Shown: piece by piece, positions 2,916 to 34,630 of the stretch | How the letters are laid out: every line of letters begins with the position of its first letter | Numbering within the stretch: position 1 is the first letter of the stretch | From: a virus | Strand: one strand, 5' to 3' | IMG/VR virus record: IMGVR_UViG_3300019873_000002 | Span: 1 to 40,987 of that record | Length of the DNA stretch: 40,987 nt | Position numbers and translations under genes: made by a program | The notes under the pieces: model-generated | Database searches by the model: none | What the model was told of the DNA's origin: nothing | The model's input: only the letters and a program-made list of their open reading frames with translations

Positions 2916-3418
2916 ATATGTTTTACAATTTCATTAATCTGATTTGTAATATTTTCATTATTTGTATTTATTTTAATATATCGACATTGTGTTTGATTAA
3001 GATAATCTAAATAAATGTTTGTCATTTTTTGATAATCATTGATTGAAACAAAGTCTTTGTCTTCTTCATCGTGCAGAAATTTATCTTTAGTTTTGTAACA
3101 TAACACTATTAATGTATTCATTTTACTAAATCTAATATCTGTGTCAATAGCTTTTTCATAATCAAAAGACCTAGCAAATAATTTACTATACATCCAATCA
3201 CATGGAAATCCTCGGTCAGAGATATAAGAAACGTTTGTTTGTTCTGTTATTTGTGTTATGGTTTCTTGAGAATATCTTTGAGCAACGATTGGGTCCCAAA
3301 AATGTTTTGGAGTTTTCATTTTCCATATAGGTAAATTTAATTTTTTAGATAATTCTTTTGCAATGCTTGATTTGCCTGAAGTATCATGACCTATTAAAAT
3401 AATTATTGTTTGTTTCAT
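2912..3418 (-). CDS. P-loop nucleotide kinase, probably deoxynucleoside-monophosphate kinase
   Basis: 168 residues. GHDTSGKSS (residues 9-17) is a Walker A loop, and SDRGFPCDW at about 67-75 gives the DR motif of thymidylate/deoxynucleoside kinases. A short lid segment rich in Lys, Asp and Glu follows. It is shorter than T4 gp1 (dNMP kinase) but of the same general type. It overlaps the polymerase stop by one base and the next gene by 4. In this context it may phosphorylate the modified dCMP made by the 5724-7016 product to the diphosphate. That role is inferred from the gene order. Confidence 0.65.
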   Translation of the reverse strand: MKQTIIILIGHDTSGKSSIAKELSKKLNLPIWKMKTPKHFWDPIVAQRYSQETITQITEQTNVSYISDRGFPCDWMYSKLFARSFDYEKAIDTDIRFSKMNTLIVLCYKTKDKFLHDEEDKDFVSINDYQKMTNIYLDYLNQTQCRYIKINTNNENITNQINEIVKHI

Positions 3419-5739
3419 TAGAATAAAGTTGCTTGTTGTTTTTCTAAATTATAAATTTCCCAATCAATTTTCGGCCAAACTACCTGACATACTCGTTTAA
3501 TAGGTGCAAAGATTTCTTTTTCCCAGTAATAAGTATAATCAGGCGTTGTTTTTAACTCGTCAATTAACATTGCTTCATTTCGACCATTAATATTAGTAAT
3601 TACATAACTTAATCTTGTTCCCATTTTTTTCTTGCTTGGATTTATTGGAAGGATTTTCTTTTCATTTAATAATCTTTCGACCAATCTTGAATTTACACTA
3701 TTAACTGCATAATCTTCTGGATTTTTTGTCACTTTAATTGTTTTAACTAACTGTTTTACATCAACCTTACCGTTATATAATTCCTTTTGTTTTTTCTTAA
3801 TAAATTCTATCATCTTTTCAAAAGAAACACCACTAAAAATTAAATTGATTACTTCCATATACATCTCGATTCCATATTTAGTATTAGATTTTTGTACATC
3901 AGTGGTACCACGAGAAAAGAGTTTGTTAACTTGTTTTCCATCTTTCATTCCTAAAAGTCCAGAATACTTTTTCTTTTCTAAAAGTAAAAATTTGCTATAC
4001 ATCTTTTCATATTCTAAAGTTACAATATTTTTAACAAGTCCAAAATCCTCATTTATCATATTGTTCATAACACTGTTTAAACTGTTTATAACGATTGGGC
4101 CTGTACAAAATATACTATCAGTATCACCATATATTACTTTTAATCCTTGTTGTTCTGCAATCCAAGCACTCATTTTATTTAAAAATTGTCCTGTAACAGT
4201 AATCCCTTGAGAAGTATATTTATTAAAATATCTTGAACTTGCTTGACATGTAATGCCAAACATGCTATTTGCTAATTCTTTATAAATCATGCTATTTGCA
4301 AATGTTAAATTATATTCTGAGGTTCCAACTTCCAAATTTTTAAGTTTGTCTCGATATACTTTTCGTAAATCAAGAAATTCTTGAACTATATTAGGAATTA
4401 AACTTTCTTCTTTTTTAAAAAACGAATTGTTTGCCGCTTGAAAGTATTTATTTTCAGGGTCTAATCTTAACTTCTCTAATTTAAGAAATTCAATCCATTC
4501 TTTATATTTTTTCTCTTCTATTTTTTTACCATTAAGAAACTTGAGATATGCAACCTCTCCTTGTTCTGAAAGATTTTTATCAAGGACATCAATGCCAATA
4601 TTCCATCCGATAATAATTGAAGGGTAGAGAGATTTGAAGTCACAAACATGGACATTATCATAATAACCTTTTAATGGTTCCTTTACATAACCTCCAGAAA
4701 TAAATGTAGTTCTTAAATCTTCCATCTTGAATTTTGATGCTTTTGATTCTAAAATAACTCCTTTACTCTTTGCTTTTCTTAATATGTAATTATCAATAAG
4801 TTCTCCTACATAAAATTTATTTAAAGATGAGTAAGTCAAAGAACATTCAGCAATCATTAAAGGAATGATTTGAAGTTTTTCATCAAGTTCTTTTAGAATA
4901 AGTGTATCATTTAGATTATATTCAAGAAGTAAATCAAGATTTTCTTTATACAATTCATGAATTTTTTTCCCTTGAAGTTCAATCTTTTCTTTTCCTAAGA
5001 AGAATTTACCTACGGTGTTGAGTTTAAAGTTCTCAAGTCCAATATGAGTTGCATCATACGCGTAGAGTTTAAAAACCCTCTGAAGTAAATCTATATGTAT
5101 AATTGTCTGCCAATAATACACAATTCCGTACTTTAAACATCTCATTTGCAAATATGGCAAATCAAACTCATCACCATTCCATGATGCGATTATATCGTAT
5201 TTTTCTATTAACTTTGTAAAGGACCTAAGAATTTTTTCTTCATTTCCTGCTTTTTTCCATGTTTTCCCTTCTTGGTCACATGCAGCCCAAGATAGAATTT
5301 CATCTCGTCCGATTTCAATATTTCCAATTTCATCTGAAGTTTCTATGTCATAATAGAGAACCCGAAGATTCGTTTCCATTTCAATATTATTATCAATCAA
5401 ATATCTTTTAGATTTTGACAAATCAAATTCAAATAAAGGGATACTTCTCATGTGTGCTTCTTCTTTGAAATCGTTTATATTGCAGTCTCCTCGTTCTTTT
5501 CGAGCATACACTTTGGCATACTCGGGATTATCTTTAAGTCTTTCTACTTTAGTAATTAATCCAAGATGAATATATTTTTCAATTAATTCTTTGTTTGTTG
5601 AAACATCTTTCGATAAAAGATAAAAATACCAAATAATATTATCAAGATAAGTACAAATACGTTTGCCATTAATTTTTTCAATGATTGCAATTCCTTTTTC
5701 TGTATCATACGAAGTTATGAATTTCATGAAAGTAACCAA
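3418..5739 (-). CDS. Family B DNA polymerase with proofreading exonuclease
   Basis: 773 residues. Exonuclease motifs: DIET (131-134), SWNGDEFD (187-193) and YNLND (274-278). Polymerase motifs: A DFKSLYPSI (367-375), B KELANSMFG (487-495, Phe where Tyr is common) and C YGDTDS (537-542), then a KKKY motif. All catalytic acids are present, so it should be an active replicative polymerase. The C-terminus ends QQATLF, which resembles the bacterial beta-clamp motif. The ATG at 5727 is an alternative start that would reduce the overlap with the upstream gene. No phage helicase or primase is seen, so host factors must provide these. Confidence 0.95.
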   Translation of the reverse strand: MVTFMKFITSYDTEKGIAIIEKINGKRICTYLDNIIWYFYLLSKDVSTNKELIEKYIHLGLITKVERLKDNPEYAKVYARKERGDCNINDFKEEAHMRSIPLFEFDLSKSKRYLIDNNIEMETNLRVLYYDIETSDEIGNIEIGRDEILSWAACDQEGKTWKKAGNEEKILRSFTKLIEKYDIIASWNGDEFDLPYLQMRCLKYGIVYYWQTIIHIDLLQRVFKLYAYDATHIGLENFKLNTVGKFFLGKEKIELQGKKIHELYKENLDLLLEYNLNDTLILKELDEKLQIIPLMIAECSLTYSSLNKFYVGELIDNYILRKAKSKGVILESKASKFKMEDLRTTFISGGYVKEPLKGYYDNVHVCDFKSLYPSIIIGWNIGIDVLDKNLSEQGEVAYLKFLNGKKIEEKKYKEWIEFLKLEKLRLDPENKYFQAANNSFFKKEESLIPNIVQEFLDLRKVYRDKLKNLEVGTSEYNLTFANSMIYKELANSMFGITCQASSRYFNKYTSQGITVTGQFLNKMSAWIAEQQGLKVIYGDTDSIFCTGPIVINSLNSVMNNMINEDFGLVKNIVTLEYEKMYSKFLLLEKKKYSGLLGMKDGKQVNKLFSRGTTDVQKSNTKYGIEMYMEVINLIFSGVSFEKMIEFIKKKQKELYNGKVDVKQLVKTIKVTKNPEDYAVNSVNSRLVERLLNEKKILPINPSKKKMGTRLSYVITNINGRNEAMLIDELKTTPDYTYYWEKEIFAPIKRVCQVVWPKIDWEIYNLEKQQATLF

Positions 5740-7016
5740 TGTAAAAACTTATAATTTTCAGGAACATTTGAATAATCTAAAGAACGTATCATTTTAACTT
5801 CTTCAGGTCCAGAAATTTTAGGGCATAAAACCAATGAATATTTTGATGATTTTCCCAATTCTTTTAAAAATTTAAAATGCCGTTCATAAATATGGAATGA
5901 TTCTACAAAATGATAATATTCACCATATTCTAATTCTGGATATTTTTCTTTTAACATTATATATATCATTTCATGAATAATTGAAAAAATAGGAATGTCT
6001 GAGCCTAATCCAAAATAAGAATCCTGTGAACGCATTTTTACTGTCATATTTAATTTATTTTTTCTAATTCTAAAACTCAAACCAAAAGTACATGGAACAT
6101 CAACTTCACCATCATTTAAAATATGATAAGGCTGCAATATCATAATAACTGCACGTCTTGAATCTTTGTCATTTGTTAATTCTTTAATTACAGAATCAAA
6201 TTGATTAAGTTTACCAAAAATATAAGGACCATAATTTGAATTTATTAATCCATCTTTATTTATCATCCCCTTCCAAAGAGTTGCATGTTCAATAATACTT
6301 GTATCATACGGATCGGATTTTAAATACCATCGAAGTTCTGTTTTAATATATCCAACTTTAAGTTTTCTACTTTCAAAATTACAAAATCGAACGTAAGGTG
6401 GAATTGTAACTCCAAAATTTTCAATCTCTAAAGTTTTCATTCCTCTTGGAGATGTTTCATTTCCCCATCTTTTTAATCTTGCATAAATATTATAAAAAAT
6501 AGCTTTATGATGTCTTGTTGATTTTAAAAATCCCCAATTCTCCTTTAATCTTTTCATTGTATTTCTAAATTTGTTTTTAGAAAAATCAGTATGTGTTCTT
6601 CCATACATCCCATTTCCTTTTCCTGTCATTGCAATACTATGTGCTAATTTTCCTTTCTTTGTTTTCATATGACTATGCTTTGATATTAATGCTTTGCTTT
6701 TTTCTGAAAGATGCTTGCCAAACATTCCATTTTCTTTTCCAAAGAATGTTCCTCCAAGTGCTTCATTTTTAAGATTATAACAATTTAAATTATTTGCAAC
6801 ATTTAACTTTTTTAATATTTTTTCTTCTTGAATTCTAAAATCAACACCACTATATAAAAAAGTTCTTTCAAAATTATTAATCCCATATTTTTTAATTGCA
6901 TTTCTAAATATTAATCCACTTCCAATGTATTTATCGGTTATTTTTCCTTTATGAGAACCAATGTAATATTTGTTATTTATTAAATTAGTCCATTTATAAA
7001 CAAATCCGATTTCCAT
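5724..7016 (-). CDS. GIY-YIG nuclease fused to a dCMP-hydroxymethylase-like (thymidylate synthase fold) enzyme
   Basis: 430 residues. The N-terminus is a GIY-YIG nuclease (GFVYKWT at 4-10, YYIGS at 17-21), followed by two NUMOD3-type repeats (about 92-108 and 132-146). Residues about 172-430 form a complete thymidylate-synthase-fold domain: catalytic Cys309 in VPCT, RR at 287-288, MRSQD at 328-332 and SFHIYERH at 373-380. Counting from the Cys, residue 340 (+31) is Asp where dUMP-using thymidylate synthases have Asn (E. coli C146 and N177). Asp at this site is the mark of dCMP hydroxymethylases such as T4 gp42. It therefore probably makes 5-hydroxymethyl-dCMP. The nuclease part is a likely homing endonuclease caught in an in-frame fusion. 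Confidence 0.85.
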   Translation of the reverse strand: MEIGFVYKWTNLINNKYYIGSHKGKITDKYIGSGLIFRNAIKKYGINNFERTFLYSGVDFRIQEEKILKKLNVANNLNCYNLKNEALGGTFFGKENGMFGKHLSEKSKALISKHSHMKTKKGKLAHSIAMTGKGNGMYGRTHTDFSKNKFRNTMKRLKENWGFLKSTRHHKAIFYNIYARLKRWGNETSPRGMKTLEIENFGVTIPPYVRFCNFESRKLKVGYIKTELRWYLKSDPYDTSIIEHATLWKGMINKDGLINSNYGPYIFGKLNQFDSVIKELTNDKDSRRAVIMILQPYHILNDGEVDVPCTFGLSFRIRKNKLNMTVKMRSQDSYFGLGSDIPIFSIIHEMIYIMLKEKYPELEYGEYYHFVESFHIYERHFKFLKELGKSSKYSLVLCPKISGPEEVKMIRSLDYSNVPENYKFLHWLLS

Positions 7017-8676: not shown

Positions 8677-9303
8677 CTATAATTCTGGGATTATTTTTTT
8701 AATAATTGCTTCAGCTTCTGATAAAAATTTCTCCTGCTCGACCTTGCAAGTTTCAATTTCTTGTAATATATCTTTTCTGAATACTTCGATAATATGGAGA
8801 GGGTGAACCTGAATTTGGGGATGATACCCGACAAAATATAATTTCTCTAACTTTGGATTAACTATAAAATACTGAAATACTTGATAAAGATATTCTTCTG
8901 GCACTTTATTAGTTAACCAAAGTTTGACATAATTCTTTCCAAGAGGGCATTTTATCTCAATAGCAATTTTATCATCAGTATCTTTAACATAACCATCAGG
9001 AGAATTCGAAATTATTGGATTTTCATCATTTTCTATAAATCCAACACGTTCAATAGAAACATTTTTTTCTAATTCAAATGCACTTACAGCATCTATCTCC
9101 AATCGACTTCCTCGATCCATAGGATTCTCATAATCTGTATCACTATCAACACCCAGAATCAAACGATTTGCAATTACTTCATACAACATTTCCTGTCTTG
9201 CCTTAGGAGTTCCACATATCCCTTTGAGCATCGTTCCTGTAAAATGTGTTTTTCTTAATTGTTCCCATTCTGGAGAACCTTGTTCAATATTTATTTTTTT
9301 CAT
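8677..9303 (-). CDS. YqaJ/lambda-exonuclease-type recombination nuclease
   Basis: 208 residues, the usual size of lambda Red-alpha-like nucleases. Visible motifs are QGSPEW...R (8-17), RGSRLE (64-69, Glu69), SPDG (101-104, Asp103), IEIKCP (115-120, the ExK pair Glu116 and Lys118) and YQVFQYF (140-146). It would resect double-stranded DNA ends 5' to 3' for single-strand annealing. It lies next to SSB-like and NinB-like genes. No Red-beta/RecT annealing protein is recognised in the window. Its start overlaps the HNH gene upstream by 20 bases. Confidence 0.9.
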   Translation of the reverse strand: MKKINIEQGSPEWEQLRKTHFTGTMLKGICGTPKARQEMLYEVIANRLILGVDSDTDYENPMDRGSRLEIDAVSAFELEKNVSIERVGFIENDENPIISNSPDGYVKDTDDKIAIEIKCPLGKNYVKLWLTNKVPEEYLYQVFQYFIVNPKLEKLYFVGYHPQIQVHPLHIIEVFRKDILQEIETCKVEQEKFLSEAEAIIKKIIPEL

Positions 9304-9613
9304 ATTTTTTTATCCAATTTTTGTCATATTTTATATGACAATTTCGACATAATTGATAATATTTTTTTATATTTATTGTATATTTGTAACCTTTTCTTTT
9401 TGCATAATCAAAAATATTTGATTTTCCAGTACATTTAAATTTTAATATTTGTCTATATCTATTTTGACAATATATTGCTTTACCATATTTTTTTTGAATT
9501 CTTCCATGAACACCATTGTATCCAAGTCTGTTTCCTTTCCAATTTCTATGTTCTTTGCCTTTTCTAAACATTCCAGGATTATATGTTGTTCTTTTGTATA
9601 TTCCTATAGGCAT
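9284..9613 (-). CDS. HNH endonuclease, 109 aa
   Basis: The protein has the layout of small phage HNH homing nucleases: basic N-terminus with FRKGKEHRNWKG, then YGKAIYC, and a C-terminal LCRNCHIKYD zinc/HNH motif (about 88-97). It is very AT-rich and lies tightly between the exonuclease and a small gene, as free-standing mobile HNH genes often do. The first Cys pair expected in the family is only partly present, so activity is uncertain. Confidence 0.75.
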   Translation of the reverse strand: MPIGIYKRTTYNPGMFRKGKEHRNWKGNRLGYNGVHGRIQKKYGKAIYCQNRYRQILKFKCTGKSNIFDYAKRKGYKYTINIKKYYQLCRNCHIKYDKNWIKKYEKNKY

Positions 9614-10593: not shown

Positions 10594-10917
10594 TTATTCT
10601 TTATTATTTTGATAATCTTTTTTACCACACACTTGGCATCGAAGATAAATAACTGGTTGGAAAACCCAACTACTTACAATAATGCCTTTTTCTTCTAACA
10701 TTTTATTCTCCGCCATCTCGAAATCGTATCTGCGTTTTTCACTTCGGTAGTATTCTTCAATCGTTTCTTGTGAAACTGGTTTTGTAGTTTTCACATGAGT
10801 TGGAAGAATTATCTGCATTTGATGCGGACGCCTACCTTTACAGAGTTTCGGTTTCTTTAATGAACTTTTTGGCTCTTTCTCTATCCATTTTTTCTTTTCG
10901 TAATTATATTCTTTCAT
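10594..10917 (-). CDS. Small basic protein with C-terminal CxxC, 107 aa
   Basis: Start chosen at 10915-10917 (MKEYNYEKKK). The open frame extends 13 codons further upstream, but that part lies in the 5-base-phased array and is probably not translated. The protein is basic and carries LCKGRRPHQM in the middle, a helical YYRSEKRRYDFEMAENKM segment and a C-terminal CQVCGKK. Not recognised. Its leader RNA is the array itself, so array and gene may be functionally linked. Confidence 0.5.
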   Translation of the reverse strand: MKEYNYEKKKWIEKEPKSSLKKPKLCKGRRPHQMQIILPTHVKTTKPVSQETIEEYYRSEKRRYDFEMAENKMLEEKGIIVSSWVFQPVIYLRCQVCGKKDYQNNKE

Positions 10918-10928
10918 TTTCTTAGAAG

Positions 10929-11373
10929 CTCTACAGAACCTCACTTTAGCTCGCAAGACAAAACAGAACGGTACTATAAAAGCAGGACTTTACAAAACAC
11001 TACATCGCAACACTGGACATTACTCGACTGAACCAGACTCGACATCGCTGGACATGACCCAACTGTACAAAACAATACTCCAGAGGCAAGACAGTGCTCG
11101 ACAAAATGCTACAAAACCTAACAACACATTACACTGCTCAACCGCACCACAGAAGCAATACTCCACAACACTTCACGGGGCAATAATTCACCGCAGCAGA
11201 CGGCACTACACTCGACCGCACCTAACTTCAAAAGCAGAACTCTACTGAACTTCGCCATACTAGACTTCACAATACTGCAATTAACTTCACCTCACTTCAG
11301 AAGCAATACTCTACAGCACCTAACTGGACATAACCAAACTGGAAATTACCACACGACACTCTAGAAGCTACAC
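10929..11373 (-). repeat. Five-base-phased degenerate array (GYNNN on the transcribed strand), main block
   Basis: Read on the plus strand, every fifth base is C preceded by a purine (NNNRC). The long segments are 10929-10974 (9 of 10 C), 10983-11078 (20 of 20), 11087-11147 (12 of 13), 11156-11226 (13 of 15), 11235-11295 (12 of 13) and 11304-11359 (11 of 12). The purine at position 4 is present in all units. The other three bases vary freely, so it is not a simple slippage repeat. It carries stops in all frames I looked at and lies between two leftward genes. It is less AT-rich than its surroundings. I do not recognise it. Confidence 0.9.
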
Positions 11374-11675
11374 TATTTTAGTTGTGCTACTTTTTCTGTT
11401 CTATCCTTCACTTTTCTAACCTTGTCTTCCAAACCCTGCATTCGAAACCACCCAATTCGTGTTTTGACATTTGTGTTGGCGGCATTGAGGTAGCCAAGAA
11501 CGATTTTCGCTTCTTTTAGTCCTTGCTCCGTCATCTTCCTACCTTCCATTATGGCTGTGCTTTCAACCATTGCTTCAAGTAAATCTCGACTTAACTGCAC
11601 GAGATTTAGATTCTCAATATGTTCCATTTTATCTTTCTGATACACTTTCAATAATTTTTTCATTTTGTTTTTCAT
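11373..11675 (-). CDS. Small helical protein flanked on both sides by the array, 100 aa
   Basis: Helical and basic, with no Cys. The segment KEAKIVLGYLNAANTNVKT resembles EEAKIHLAVLNEAGRKVAK of the 64-residue product at 12931-13125, so the two may be distant paralogues. The DNA on both sides (10929-11372 and about 11689-11806) is the 5-base-phased array, so this protein is a candidate array binder on position alone. The start has the common leader of this operon (TTAGAAATATG). No family recognised. Confidence 0.6.
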   Translation of the reverse strand: MKNKMKKLLKVYQKDKMEHIENLNLVQLSRDLLEAMVESTAIMEGRKMTEQGLKEAKIVLGYLNAANTNVKTRIGWFRMQGLEDKVRKVKDRTEKVAQLK

Positions 11676-11688
11676 ATTTCTAATAATG

Positions 11689-11806
11689 CCGACCTTTACT
11701 TACTTGACTACGAAAGCTGTACTGGACTAAACTTCGCTGGACTTTGCTTGACATTACTTCACGTGGCGATACTATACTTCGCTACACTGGAAAAGCATTA
11801 CTTTAC
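11689..11806 (-). repeat. Five-base-phased degenerate array, second block
   Basis: Same NNNRC phasing as 10929-11373. From 11717 to 11787 all 15 expected positions are C and all 15 preceding bases are purines. Shorter in-phase runs flank it (11689-11699, 11703-11708, 11796-11806). Two phase-reset elements (ctacgaaagc and ctggaaaagc) lie at 11708-11717 and 11787-11796. The block fills the space upstream of the 100-residue gene and runs into the last codons of the 11798-12352 gene. Confidence 0.85.
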
Positions 11807-12352
11807 TGGTTCAAACGAAACTACTTCAAACCTACCGAATTTCGGTCTCCATGCACCGATACCGACATAAATTCCCGCATACTCCAAAATAGATTTCAAC
11901 ATTTCTGGTGATACCCTTTCGTCTTGAAGTAAGTCAATCGTGAAAGATAAATTCCATTTGTTAAAGACAGGGCGAACAACCCAGACGGCTCCACCAGTGT
12001 TTTTATTCCGTCCCCATCGGGCATCCATAGTCGGCTTCTGATTCTGATGAAGTATCTCAACAGGGTCTATGATTAGACCACCTTTGATTACATCCTTAAA
12101 AGATTTTTTACCCTCCATCTTGAAAGTTGTTGCAGCTCTCGTCATTGCGGCTTCAATCATTTCTGAAGGTTGCATGAACTTACCACTCGCAGTCTTGTAA
12201 GAGTGCATATCAAACTGTTCTTTGTCTGTTAAGTCTTTTACTTTCGCTTTTGGACTAGATTTTCTTTTTAGTATTTCTTGTTCTTCTTTTGGCGTAGGAT
12301 GCTTTGCTTGAAGCAAAGGTGCTATGCCACTAATTTTTACTTTGAATTTCAT
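11798..12352 (-). CDS. Conserved-looking phage protein of unknown function, 184 aa
   Basis: A mixed alpha/beta protein. It starts with a strand (KFKVKISGIAPLLQ), has a Lys-rich linker (25-45), then FMQPSEMIEAAMTRAA, and ends with an AGIYVGIGAWRPKFGRFEV stretch. I have the impression of having seen such proteins in phage early regions without an assigned role, but I cannot name the family. It lies just upstream of the second array block, in the early operon. A nucleic-acid role is possible but not shown. Confidence 0.6.
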   Translation of the reverse strand: MKFKVKISGIAPLLQAKHPTPKEEQEILKRKSSPKAKVKDLTDKEQFDMHSYKTASGKFMQPSEMIEAAMTRAATTFKMEGKKSFKDVIKGGLIIDPVEILHQNQKPTMDARWGRNKNTGGAVWVVRPVFNKWNLSFTIDLLQDERVSPEMLKSILEYAGIYVGIGAWRPKFGRFEVVSFEPVK

Positions 12353-12930: not shown

Positions 12931-13125
12931 TCATCGCATTATTGATGTTAAATTAAGATTTTTATATTTCTTTCCAAATTTTTTAGCAACCTTTCGACCT
13001 GCTTCATTTAAGACTGCTAAATGTATTTTGGCTTCTTCCATGCACTCATCATAATTACCGCCAGTATGCAACTTGGCTCGTGCTGTTTGTAAACCTATTA
13101 ATGCTTCTTTTGTTTTATTTTTCAT
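12931..13125 (-). CDS. First leftward gene, small helical protein, 64 aa
   Basis: Basic and helical, with EEAKIHLAVLNEAGRKVAKKF in the middle. It resembles part of the 100-residue array-flanked protein at 11373-11675. As the first gene after the leftward promoter it would be expressed early and strongly. Not recognised. Confidence 0.5.
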   Translation of the reverse strand: MKNKTKEALIGLQTARAKLHTGGNYDECMEEAKIHLAVLNEAGRKVAKKFGKKYKNLNLTSIMR

Positions 13126-14773: not shown

Positions 14774-14894
14774 AATAAAACAGACGAAACCTATTTTTTG
14801 TCCTCTTTGCAATAAAAAAATAGAAGGAGCAAGATATTTTATTCAAGAACAAAAGCATTGGATTTGCACTGAATGTTATTTAAAAGATGAATGA
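14748..14894 (+). CDS. Zinc-ribbon microprotein, 48 aa
   Basis: CPLC (18-21) and WICTEC (38-43) form a CxxC-x18-CxxC zinc site, the best example of the WICxxC microprotein layout in this genome. It overlaps the NinG gene start by 4 bases (ATGA). A role as a regulator or cofactor of the neighbouring recombination gene is only a guess. Confidence 0.6.
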   Translation: MNQELEENEIKQTKPIFCPLCNKKIEGARYFIQEQKHWICTECYLKDE

Positions 14895-15274
14895 GAAAAG
14901 TAAAATTACAAAAGAAAAGCAAACAAAAAATTTCTCTTCTTAAACGAAAACTATGGTCAATCTTTTCGAGTTATATAAAGCGCAAAGAGAAAAACATTTG
15001 CTTTACCTGTGGGCGGAAATCGGAGGGAAGTGGGTCGCATGCGGGACACTTTGTCCCGAAATCGGTTGGCGGTTTGGCTTTATACTTCCACGAGGGAAAC
15101 GTGCATTGTCAATGCTACAACTGCAACATAAATCTTGGCGGCAACCAGTATATTTATGGAAAGAAGCTCGGCGAAGAAAAAGTAAAAGAACTCTACGCTC
15201 TAAAAAGTAAATATACCAAGTGGTCGGCTGAAGAGTATTTAGAGAAAATTGAGCATTACAAGAAATTATTATGA
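14891..15274 (+). CDS. NinG/Rap-like Holliday-junction nuclease
   Basis: 127 residues. A basic helical N-terminus is followed by CFTCGRK (37-43), SHAGHFVPKS (49-58), YFHEGNVHCQCYNCN (65-79) and LGGN, the Cys/His pattern of lambda NinG (Rap), a zinc-containing HNH-type nuclease that cuts branched DNA. It is shorter than lambda NinG (204 residues) but has the whole signature region. It is coupled to small genes on both sides. Confidence 0.85.
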   Translation: MRKVKLQKKSKQKISLLKRKLWSIFSSYIKRKEKNICFTCGRKSEGSGSHAGHFVPKSVGGLALYFHEGNVHCQCYNCNINLGGNQYIYGKKLGEEKVKELYALKSKYTKWSAEEYLEKIEHYKKLL

Positions 15275-33736: not shown

Positions 33737-34630
33737 ATGAGAAAAAGACCACTAACCGAAGCACATAAGCAAAAAATAAGTATGGCAAAGCGAGGAATTA
33801 CCACTAGAAAAGGATTTTTTCTTTCTGAAGACCACAAAAGAAAAATTGGACTAGCAAATTCCATTGCTTTGAAAGGCAGACATTTTTTTCCTATAAATGA
33901 ATTTGAAAAAGGACATCAGCCATGGAATAAAGGTATTTTATCAAACGAAGTAACGAAACAAAAAATTAGGGAAAAATTACTTGGTTACAAACATACTGAA
34001 CAAGCAAGAAAGAATATGTCGGATGCAAAAAAAGGATTTATTTTCACAGAGAAACATAGAAAAAATATCAGTATAGCAAAAGTAATTTCAGGATATTCTC
34101 ATTCTAAAGAAACAAAAGAAAAAATACGACACGCTACTCTAAAACAAGAAAATTTTAATCGTTTGGGAATGTTAGGTAAAAAACATACATTTGAATGGAA
34201 AAAAAATATGAGTGAATTTCACATTGCTCATCCAAATAAACATTTCAAAAATACTTCTATTGAAATTAAAATTCAGAATGAATTGATAGAAAATAAAATA
34301 CCATTTATAAAACAAACTGGAGTAGAAAAAGTTGCCGTGGTGGATTTCTTCTTACCTGATTTTAACGTTGTAATCCAATGTGATGGTTGCTACTGGCATA
34401 ATTGTTTGGAACACAATCCTAAACATCATATAGAAGCTCGCCAAAGAGATATAACCCAAACTGCGAAATTAGAAGCCAGGGGTGTCAAAGTATTTCGTTT
34501 CTGGGAACACGACATAAACAAATCGCCGAATGAATGTATTAAAAGTGTATTGAATTATCTATTAAAATATCAAGGAGCTGGAATTAGTGCGGCGGCTGTG
34601 GCGGGTGCTAAGTTATTAAGAAAGAAATAG
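33737..34630 (+). CDS. Homing endonuclease, NUMOD3 repeats plus Vsr-like EDxHD nuclease
   Basis: 297 residues. The first ~150 residues contain repeated NUMOD3-like DNA-binding units (LSEDHKRKIGLAN, FTEKHRKNISIAK, HSKETKEKIRHA). The C-terminal nuclease shows TSIEIKIQNEL, VVDFFLPDFNVVIQCDGCYW and FRFWEHD, the EDxHD pattern of the very-short-patch-repair-like homing endonuclease family (I-Bth0305I type). The last 20 residues (GAGISAAAVAGAKLLRKK) are of different, GC-richer composition and may be a captured tail of the neighbouring gene. It is inserted between ejection and fibre genes. Confidence 0.85.
   Translation: MRKRPLTEAHKQKISMAKRGITTRKGFFLSEDHKRKIGLANSIALKGRHFFPINEFEKGHQPWNKGILSNEVTKQKIREKLLGYKHTEQARKNMSDAKKGFIFTEKHRKNISIAKVISGYSHSKETKEKIRHATLKQENFNRLGMLGKKHTFEWKKNMSEFHIAHPNKHFKNTSIEIKIQNELIENKIPFIKQTGVEKVAVVDFFLPDFNVVIQCDGCYWHNCLEHNPKHHIEARQRDITQTAKLEARGVKVFRFWEHDINKSPNECIKSVLNYLLKYQGAGISAAAVAGAKLLRKK

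Follow-up and report, generated by a model that had tools for sequence, protein, structure and literature searches.

We conclude that the region of five-base phased DNA in the window (the whole 40,987-nt stretch of viral DNA analysed here) is very probably a VIPR (Viral Interference Programmable Repeat) locus, whose array supplies the guide RNAs (vrRNAs) of a Vipr protein. This assignment is made because the neighbouring product matches a Vipr by profile, because its structural model is Cas7-like, and because arrays and this protein are linked when the search is started from either of them. VIPR itself is already known. In PMC13142463 (bioRxiv 2026.04.26.720920) it is described as a CRISPR-like RNA-guided phage system that represses competing elements, built from a phage RAMP protein and vrRNAs of 9-16 YNNGG units in which the NN letters recognise DNA and one target base is skipped per step. 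Seven VIPR types are described there, with GGY/NN 'or a related consensus', and vrRNA transcription, RNP formation, DNA binding and repression are reported for relatives of the present system. The statement of the earlier note that no phage element like the array had been described is thus superseded, and what is new here is a GY variant together with evidence for a target. The GY class may already stand in figure S17 of that paper, and this is our main doubt as to whether the locus is a new variant or a new member.

Phasing and layout of the array

The unit counts of the earlier note were reproduced exactly. In the seven segments that it had singled out, 91 complete NNNRC units and 7 segment-opening RC dinucleotides make up 98 units, with a purine at position 4 in all 98 and a C at position 5 in 92 (91 and 85, respectively, when only complete units are considered). 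Lag-5 autocorrelation over 10929-11360 is 0.431, compared with 0.285 ± 0.020 for 1000 mononucleotide shuffles, none of which exceeded 0.344. Across the whole contig, the 432-nt windows with the highest lag-5 values are those that cover the array. When both strands of the 41 kb were scanned, runs of at least 5 RC units at spacing 5 were found in the array region alone, and on one strand alone. Hence both the phasing and its confinement to the two gaps around the gene at 11373-11675, as first noted, hold against shuffled controls and the rest of the contig.

A coding origin was rejected, since a 5-nt period is incompatible with codons and there is no ORF longer than 64 aa inside the array. No Rfam RNA, ribozymes included, reached gathering score between 9800 and 13500, and the array RNA folds no better than its shuffles (z about -0.2), with no conserved tail structure seen. 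Repeats can decay to phased patterns, and the region could on that account be the remnant of a tandem repeat or else an assembly artefact, an objection already foreseen in the earlier note. We give this reading practically no weight: no short-unit tandem repeat was detected in the array region, in agreement with the initial view that it is not a slippage repeat, and the same phasing, with other letters, lies beside the same gene not only in a sister phage but also in many that are unrelated, which contradicts an artefact.

The breaks between segments proved to be a recurring punctuation, RAAGC on the + strand (GCUUY on the transcript; AGAGGC once), which makes a 9-nt step and shifts the phase by one base (-1). 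Read on the transcribed (-) strand, the order is GCUUY, 9-19 GYNNN units, GCUUY. The main array (10924-11368, - strand) holds six putative guides, flanked and separated by GCUUY and situated downstream of the 100-aa gene (11373-11675, - strand): guide A (11305-11359, 11 units), guide B (11236-11295, 12 units), guide C (11157-11226, 14 units), guide D (11088-11147, 12 units), guide E (10984-11078, 19 units, which may be two guides without punctuation between them) and guide F (10930-10974, 9 units), all on the - strand. The seventh, guide G (11718-11790, - strand), is a lone vrRNA between the 100-aa gene and vipr (11798-12352, - strand). Its punctuation reads, on the + strand, GAAAGC on its 3′ side (11712-11717) and AAAAGC on its 5′ side (11791-11796).

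The Vipr protein and its linkage to arrays

The family profile of the 11798-12352 product retrieved one PDB sequence, 36pp ("SUSP1 Vipr protein"), with an E-value of 1.4e-33; no Pfam family matches the window protein. The AlphaFold model of this 184-aa protein has a pLDDT of 92.9 and was matched by Foldseek to Cas7 subunits of type VII, Csm and Cas7-11 complexes with a probability of 1.00 and TM-scores of about 0.46-0.60 on the query. A G-loop motif, GxGxWRPxFGRF, is present in the alignment of the family. This Vipr/Cas7-like RAMP is most likely the reader of the array, in place of the products of 11373-11675, 12931-13125 and 10594-10917 that had been put forward as candidates.

A forward scan of IMG/VR, made with a degenerate pattern (RC at five-base intervals) and with no protein information, matched more than 100 stretches, many of them with several separate runs. 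The degenerate search proposed in the earlier note therefore does recover similar arrays in many phages. Among the ORFs lying within 4 kb of the arrays there was a single dominant family, the relatives of the 11798-12352 product, present in 52 of 76 loci by BLAST and in 62 of 76 by profile search; in most of the remaining loci the array was close to the end of the available sequence. The reverse test started from 80 IMG/VR loci selected by a Vipr peptide motif and is thus free of the selection made in the forward scan, a few loci being common to both sets. A period-5 array was found in 64 of these 80 loci and in none of the 80 after dinucleotide shuffling. Simple reversal still gave arrays in 11 of 80, and is a weak control because a reversed CNNRC still contains RC. 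In 56 of the 64 array-bearing loci, GY was on the vipr strand.

This strand asymmetry bears on the idea of a double-stranded DNA element touched every half turn, or of a single-stranded DNA filament site. Five base pairs are about half a turn, and a half-turn contact would to that extent suit the pattern. The spacing is exactly 5.0 over up to 95 bases and is broken by -1 phase shifts, whereas DNA has 10.5 bp per turn, and neither form of DNA element fits a motif that mostly keeps to the vipr strand; we consider such elements extremely improbable. An RNA coated by a ring or filament protein (TRAP-like or nucleocapsid-like), holding GY every 5 nt with the other bases as filler and with no guiding, would also account for a 5-nt step and a fixed GY taken by themselves. 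TRAP is a ring protein that binds a fixed number of NAG sites, one motif about every 5 nt of RNA, and has no guide function. The likeness is that a short RNA motif is read about every 5 nt, but the window has runs that vary from 9 to 19 GYNNN units, unlike a fixed ring, with no fixed A before the G, and no relative of the TRAP family was found among the neighbouring genes scanned. As the array is moreover linked to a Vipr/Cas7-like protein, positions 2 and 3 of its units differ from intergenic DNA and one guide spells vipr codons (see below), we regard a non-guiding RNA as very unlikely. The TRAP-like, ssDNA-filament and half-turn dsDNA readings first suggested are therefore not supported, while the more general proposal of a non-coding array kept by selection was right, and one protein contact per five RNA bases fits it.

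Other genes were observed near arrays. A small family with a FEWDD...YRL.QAR motif adjoins them in 11 loci (L031, L034, L058, L068, L074, L075, L086, L087, L110, L118 and L131) and a second small family does so in 6 (L024, L042, L051, L057, L090 and L098); both probably serve other VIPR types as accessory genes. In L029, L036 and L054 a ParB-like protein adjoins the arrays. Elsewhere in the window, a 430-aa ORF (5724-7016) has by eye a GIY-YIG-like endonuclease start and a thymidylate-synthase-like end, and the ORFs at 9284-9613, 14891-15274 and 33737-34630 resemble, also by eye, HNH or other homing-type endonucleases.

A relaxed clamp and a guide that matches vipr

The closest Vipr relatives that we found are those of the sister phage L127 (86% identity to the window Vipr), L142 (72%) and L143 (54%). 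In most relatives position 1 of the array strand, which corresponds to the first G of GGY, is a near-fixed C (85-100% in L144, L196, L145, L146 and L147). In the window, L127, L142 and L143 taken together it is A35 C15 G9 T41, as compared with A37 C12 G10 T41 for intergenic DNA of the window, and in the window array too this position has plain intergenic composition. Positions 2 and 3 depart from it in the window and are more GC-rich across the four-phage clade (position 1 versus 2+3, p 4e-5). We take the intergenic-like position 1 as a sign that contact with the first G has been lost and that NGY/NN remains. The three bases that the earlier note called variable do vary, but they would not be free filler: from their composition, we read them as two guide letters and one unread base.

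The vipr and 100-aa genes of the window and its sister phage are 80% identical in DNA and the guides only 26%, that is, the guides have turned over. The 100-aa gene keeps its place in L127, L143 and L142 (where the copy is interrupted by a stop), and its product was sought without success in G004, a strict-GGY relative. The protein has no match to characterised families, and its structure model is helical with low confidence. Its conserved place makes it a candidate VIPR accessory (vap) of the clade. A 64-aa ORF at 12931-13125 of the window weakly resembles it (EEAKIHLAVLNEA versus KEAKIVLGYLNAA; 24% identity).

Eight models of reading and skipping were applied in a comparison of all guides from the clade and from G004 with the genomes of these five phages. 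Two clear outliers emerged, with scores of 18.0 and 17.6 (the highest permuted score in the model being 13.4): guide G against the vipr of the sister phage and against its own vipr. They arise only when positions 2-3 are read and one base is skipped. The match extends over the 11 units nearest the 5′ end of the vrRNA, with 20 of 22 read bases matched, and hence 2 mismatches, in each genome. The predicted site in the window (12033-12064, + strand) spans codons 97-107 of vipr, with two matched bases and one skipped base per step, and the skipped base falls at the third (wobble) position of the codons, the frame being counted from position 12352, where the gene starts. In 700 permutations of the units the match was not reached in either genome, and Gumbel p values were 5e-4 and 3e-4, uncorrected for the guides, genomes and models tried. 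Under a three-letter code (NNN read), or with skips of 0, 2 or 3, no target stood clearly above shuffles in the clade genomes.

When 610 guides from all loci were compared with 108 vipr genes, two outliers exceeded the permuted maximum, and only at step 3: guide G and a guide of L109, an unrelated phage. The read bases of the latter (near 2850, - strand) spell out, 20 in a row and in codon frame, the L202 vipr (3001-3531) at the glycine loop GDFRPTYGRF. These matches between guides and vipr genes fit the report in PMC13142463 of vrRNAs that target other VIPR systems. Guide G could instead serve as an autoregulator of its own vipr and not as a weapon against that of rival phages, as it stands alone directly downstream of vipr and agrees with its own vipr in 20 of the 22 bases read. 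The unbroken core is longer, however, in the sister-phage match, where it comprises 18 contiguous bases, and the mismatches of guide G to its own vipr lie inside that core. The L109 guide also fits the vipr of another phage (23/26) better than its own (19/26), and targeting of other VIPR systems is what that paper describes. If the locus is VIPR, we therefore think autoregulation somewhat unlikely.

For the other six guides no target was found in the clade genomes, in IMG/VR pattern scans or in local searches. Exact 8-unit patterns of guide C (two patterns) and guide G gave 23, 4 and 30 matches in IMG/VR, with flanks at about chance; the two guide C patterns included 3′ units, which, to judge from the later vipr match, may be unread. 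A weak excess at skip 1 in a larger local target search was gone in repeats with cleaner masking. Host assignment yielded distant named genomes, with 38% as the highest identity, and many of these were environmental MAGs.

Comparison with described systems and proposed mechanism

The locus shares with the VIPR systems described in PMC13142463 (for example type II of Escherichia phage SUSP1, and that of a Pseudomonas fulva prophage) a Vipr RAMP homolog with a small neighbouring gene, and a long intergenic array near vipr in which 5-nt units combine a fixed clamp with variable letters and are grouped into guides of about 9-19 units. Transcription of the array together with vipr would also be common to both, for the window phage as deduced from sequence. 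Both have a target that is computed by the 1-nt-skip rule and whose skipped base lies at the codon wobble, here for one of seven guides. The clamp of the window is GY and not the canonical GGY; since 'a related consensus' is allowed for in that paper, we take this to indicate a variant and not a non-member. A conserved vrRNA 3′ tail is described there for type II, with other types differing, whereas the guides of the window are split by the short GCUUY alone. The neighbour in SUSP1-type loci is phrog_5926, while that of the window is the dissimilar 100-aa helical protein.

In the genome of Felixounavirus wV8, CNNAC arrays flank a close homolog of the SUSP1 gene on both sides. Annotated direct repeats 'DR_4' of this genome (NC_012749, 59418-59475 and 60811-60868; L138 4419-4476 and 5812-5869) sit between CNNAC arrays, one on each side of the vipr homolog, and are probably conserved vrRNA tails.

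With the backbones of class 1 CRISPR-Cas complexes (Cas7, Csm3, type VII Cas7) the system has in common the RAMP fold and, presumably, periodic contacts to the guide RNA. It differs in its 5-nt step, as against the 6-nt step given for these complexes in PMC13142463, and in pairing that is gapped and not near-contiguous. Identical repeats as long as those of CRISPR were not found in the region, nor were cas families in the neighbouring genes scanned.

In the mechanism that we propose, the array would be transcribed leftwards together with the genes into vrRNAs of GYNNN units, possibly processed at GCUUY. The Cas7-like Vipr would polymerise along this RNA with one subunit per 5 nt, each gripping the fixed GY. 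The two variable bases adjoining GY would act as guide letters, and the third, which is the first G of GGY elsewhere, would be unread and drift. The guide would then pair with dsDNA in three-base steps, two bases paired and one skipped, and DNA-bound Vipr would block transcription. Guide G matches vipr genes of its own kind, and the other six would presumably be aimed at competitors absent from databases. More tentatively, and with the chances slightly against it, the clade may form a VIPR sub-type of its own, whose protein has lost its hold on the first G and contacts two bases per 5-nt subunit, whose tail-less array is cut at GCUUY with the help of the 100-aa helical protein specific to the clade, and in which one guide is dedicated to the control of vipr.

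Other fixed motifs were observed in IMG/VR phages at the same 5-nt step: GUC (L024, L076, L115), GUU (L075, L121), GUG (L098, L051), YGY (L067) and UGY (L155). This indicates that the clamp differs between VIPR lineages.

An array recognised from raw sequence alone has thus led to a system whose first description dates from 2026. Guide-to-vipr matches were computed for two phages that are unrelated to each other, and both agree with a wobble-aligned rule in which one base is skipped; one of the two falls on codons for the Vipr glycine loop. The fixed VIPR clamp can shrink to GY, which means that what the protein holds is separable from what the guide reads, and the varied clamps at a constant 5-nt step form a natural set for learning how RAMP proteins choose their RNA.
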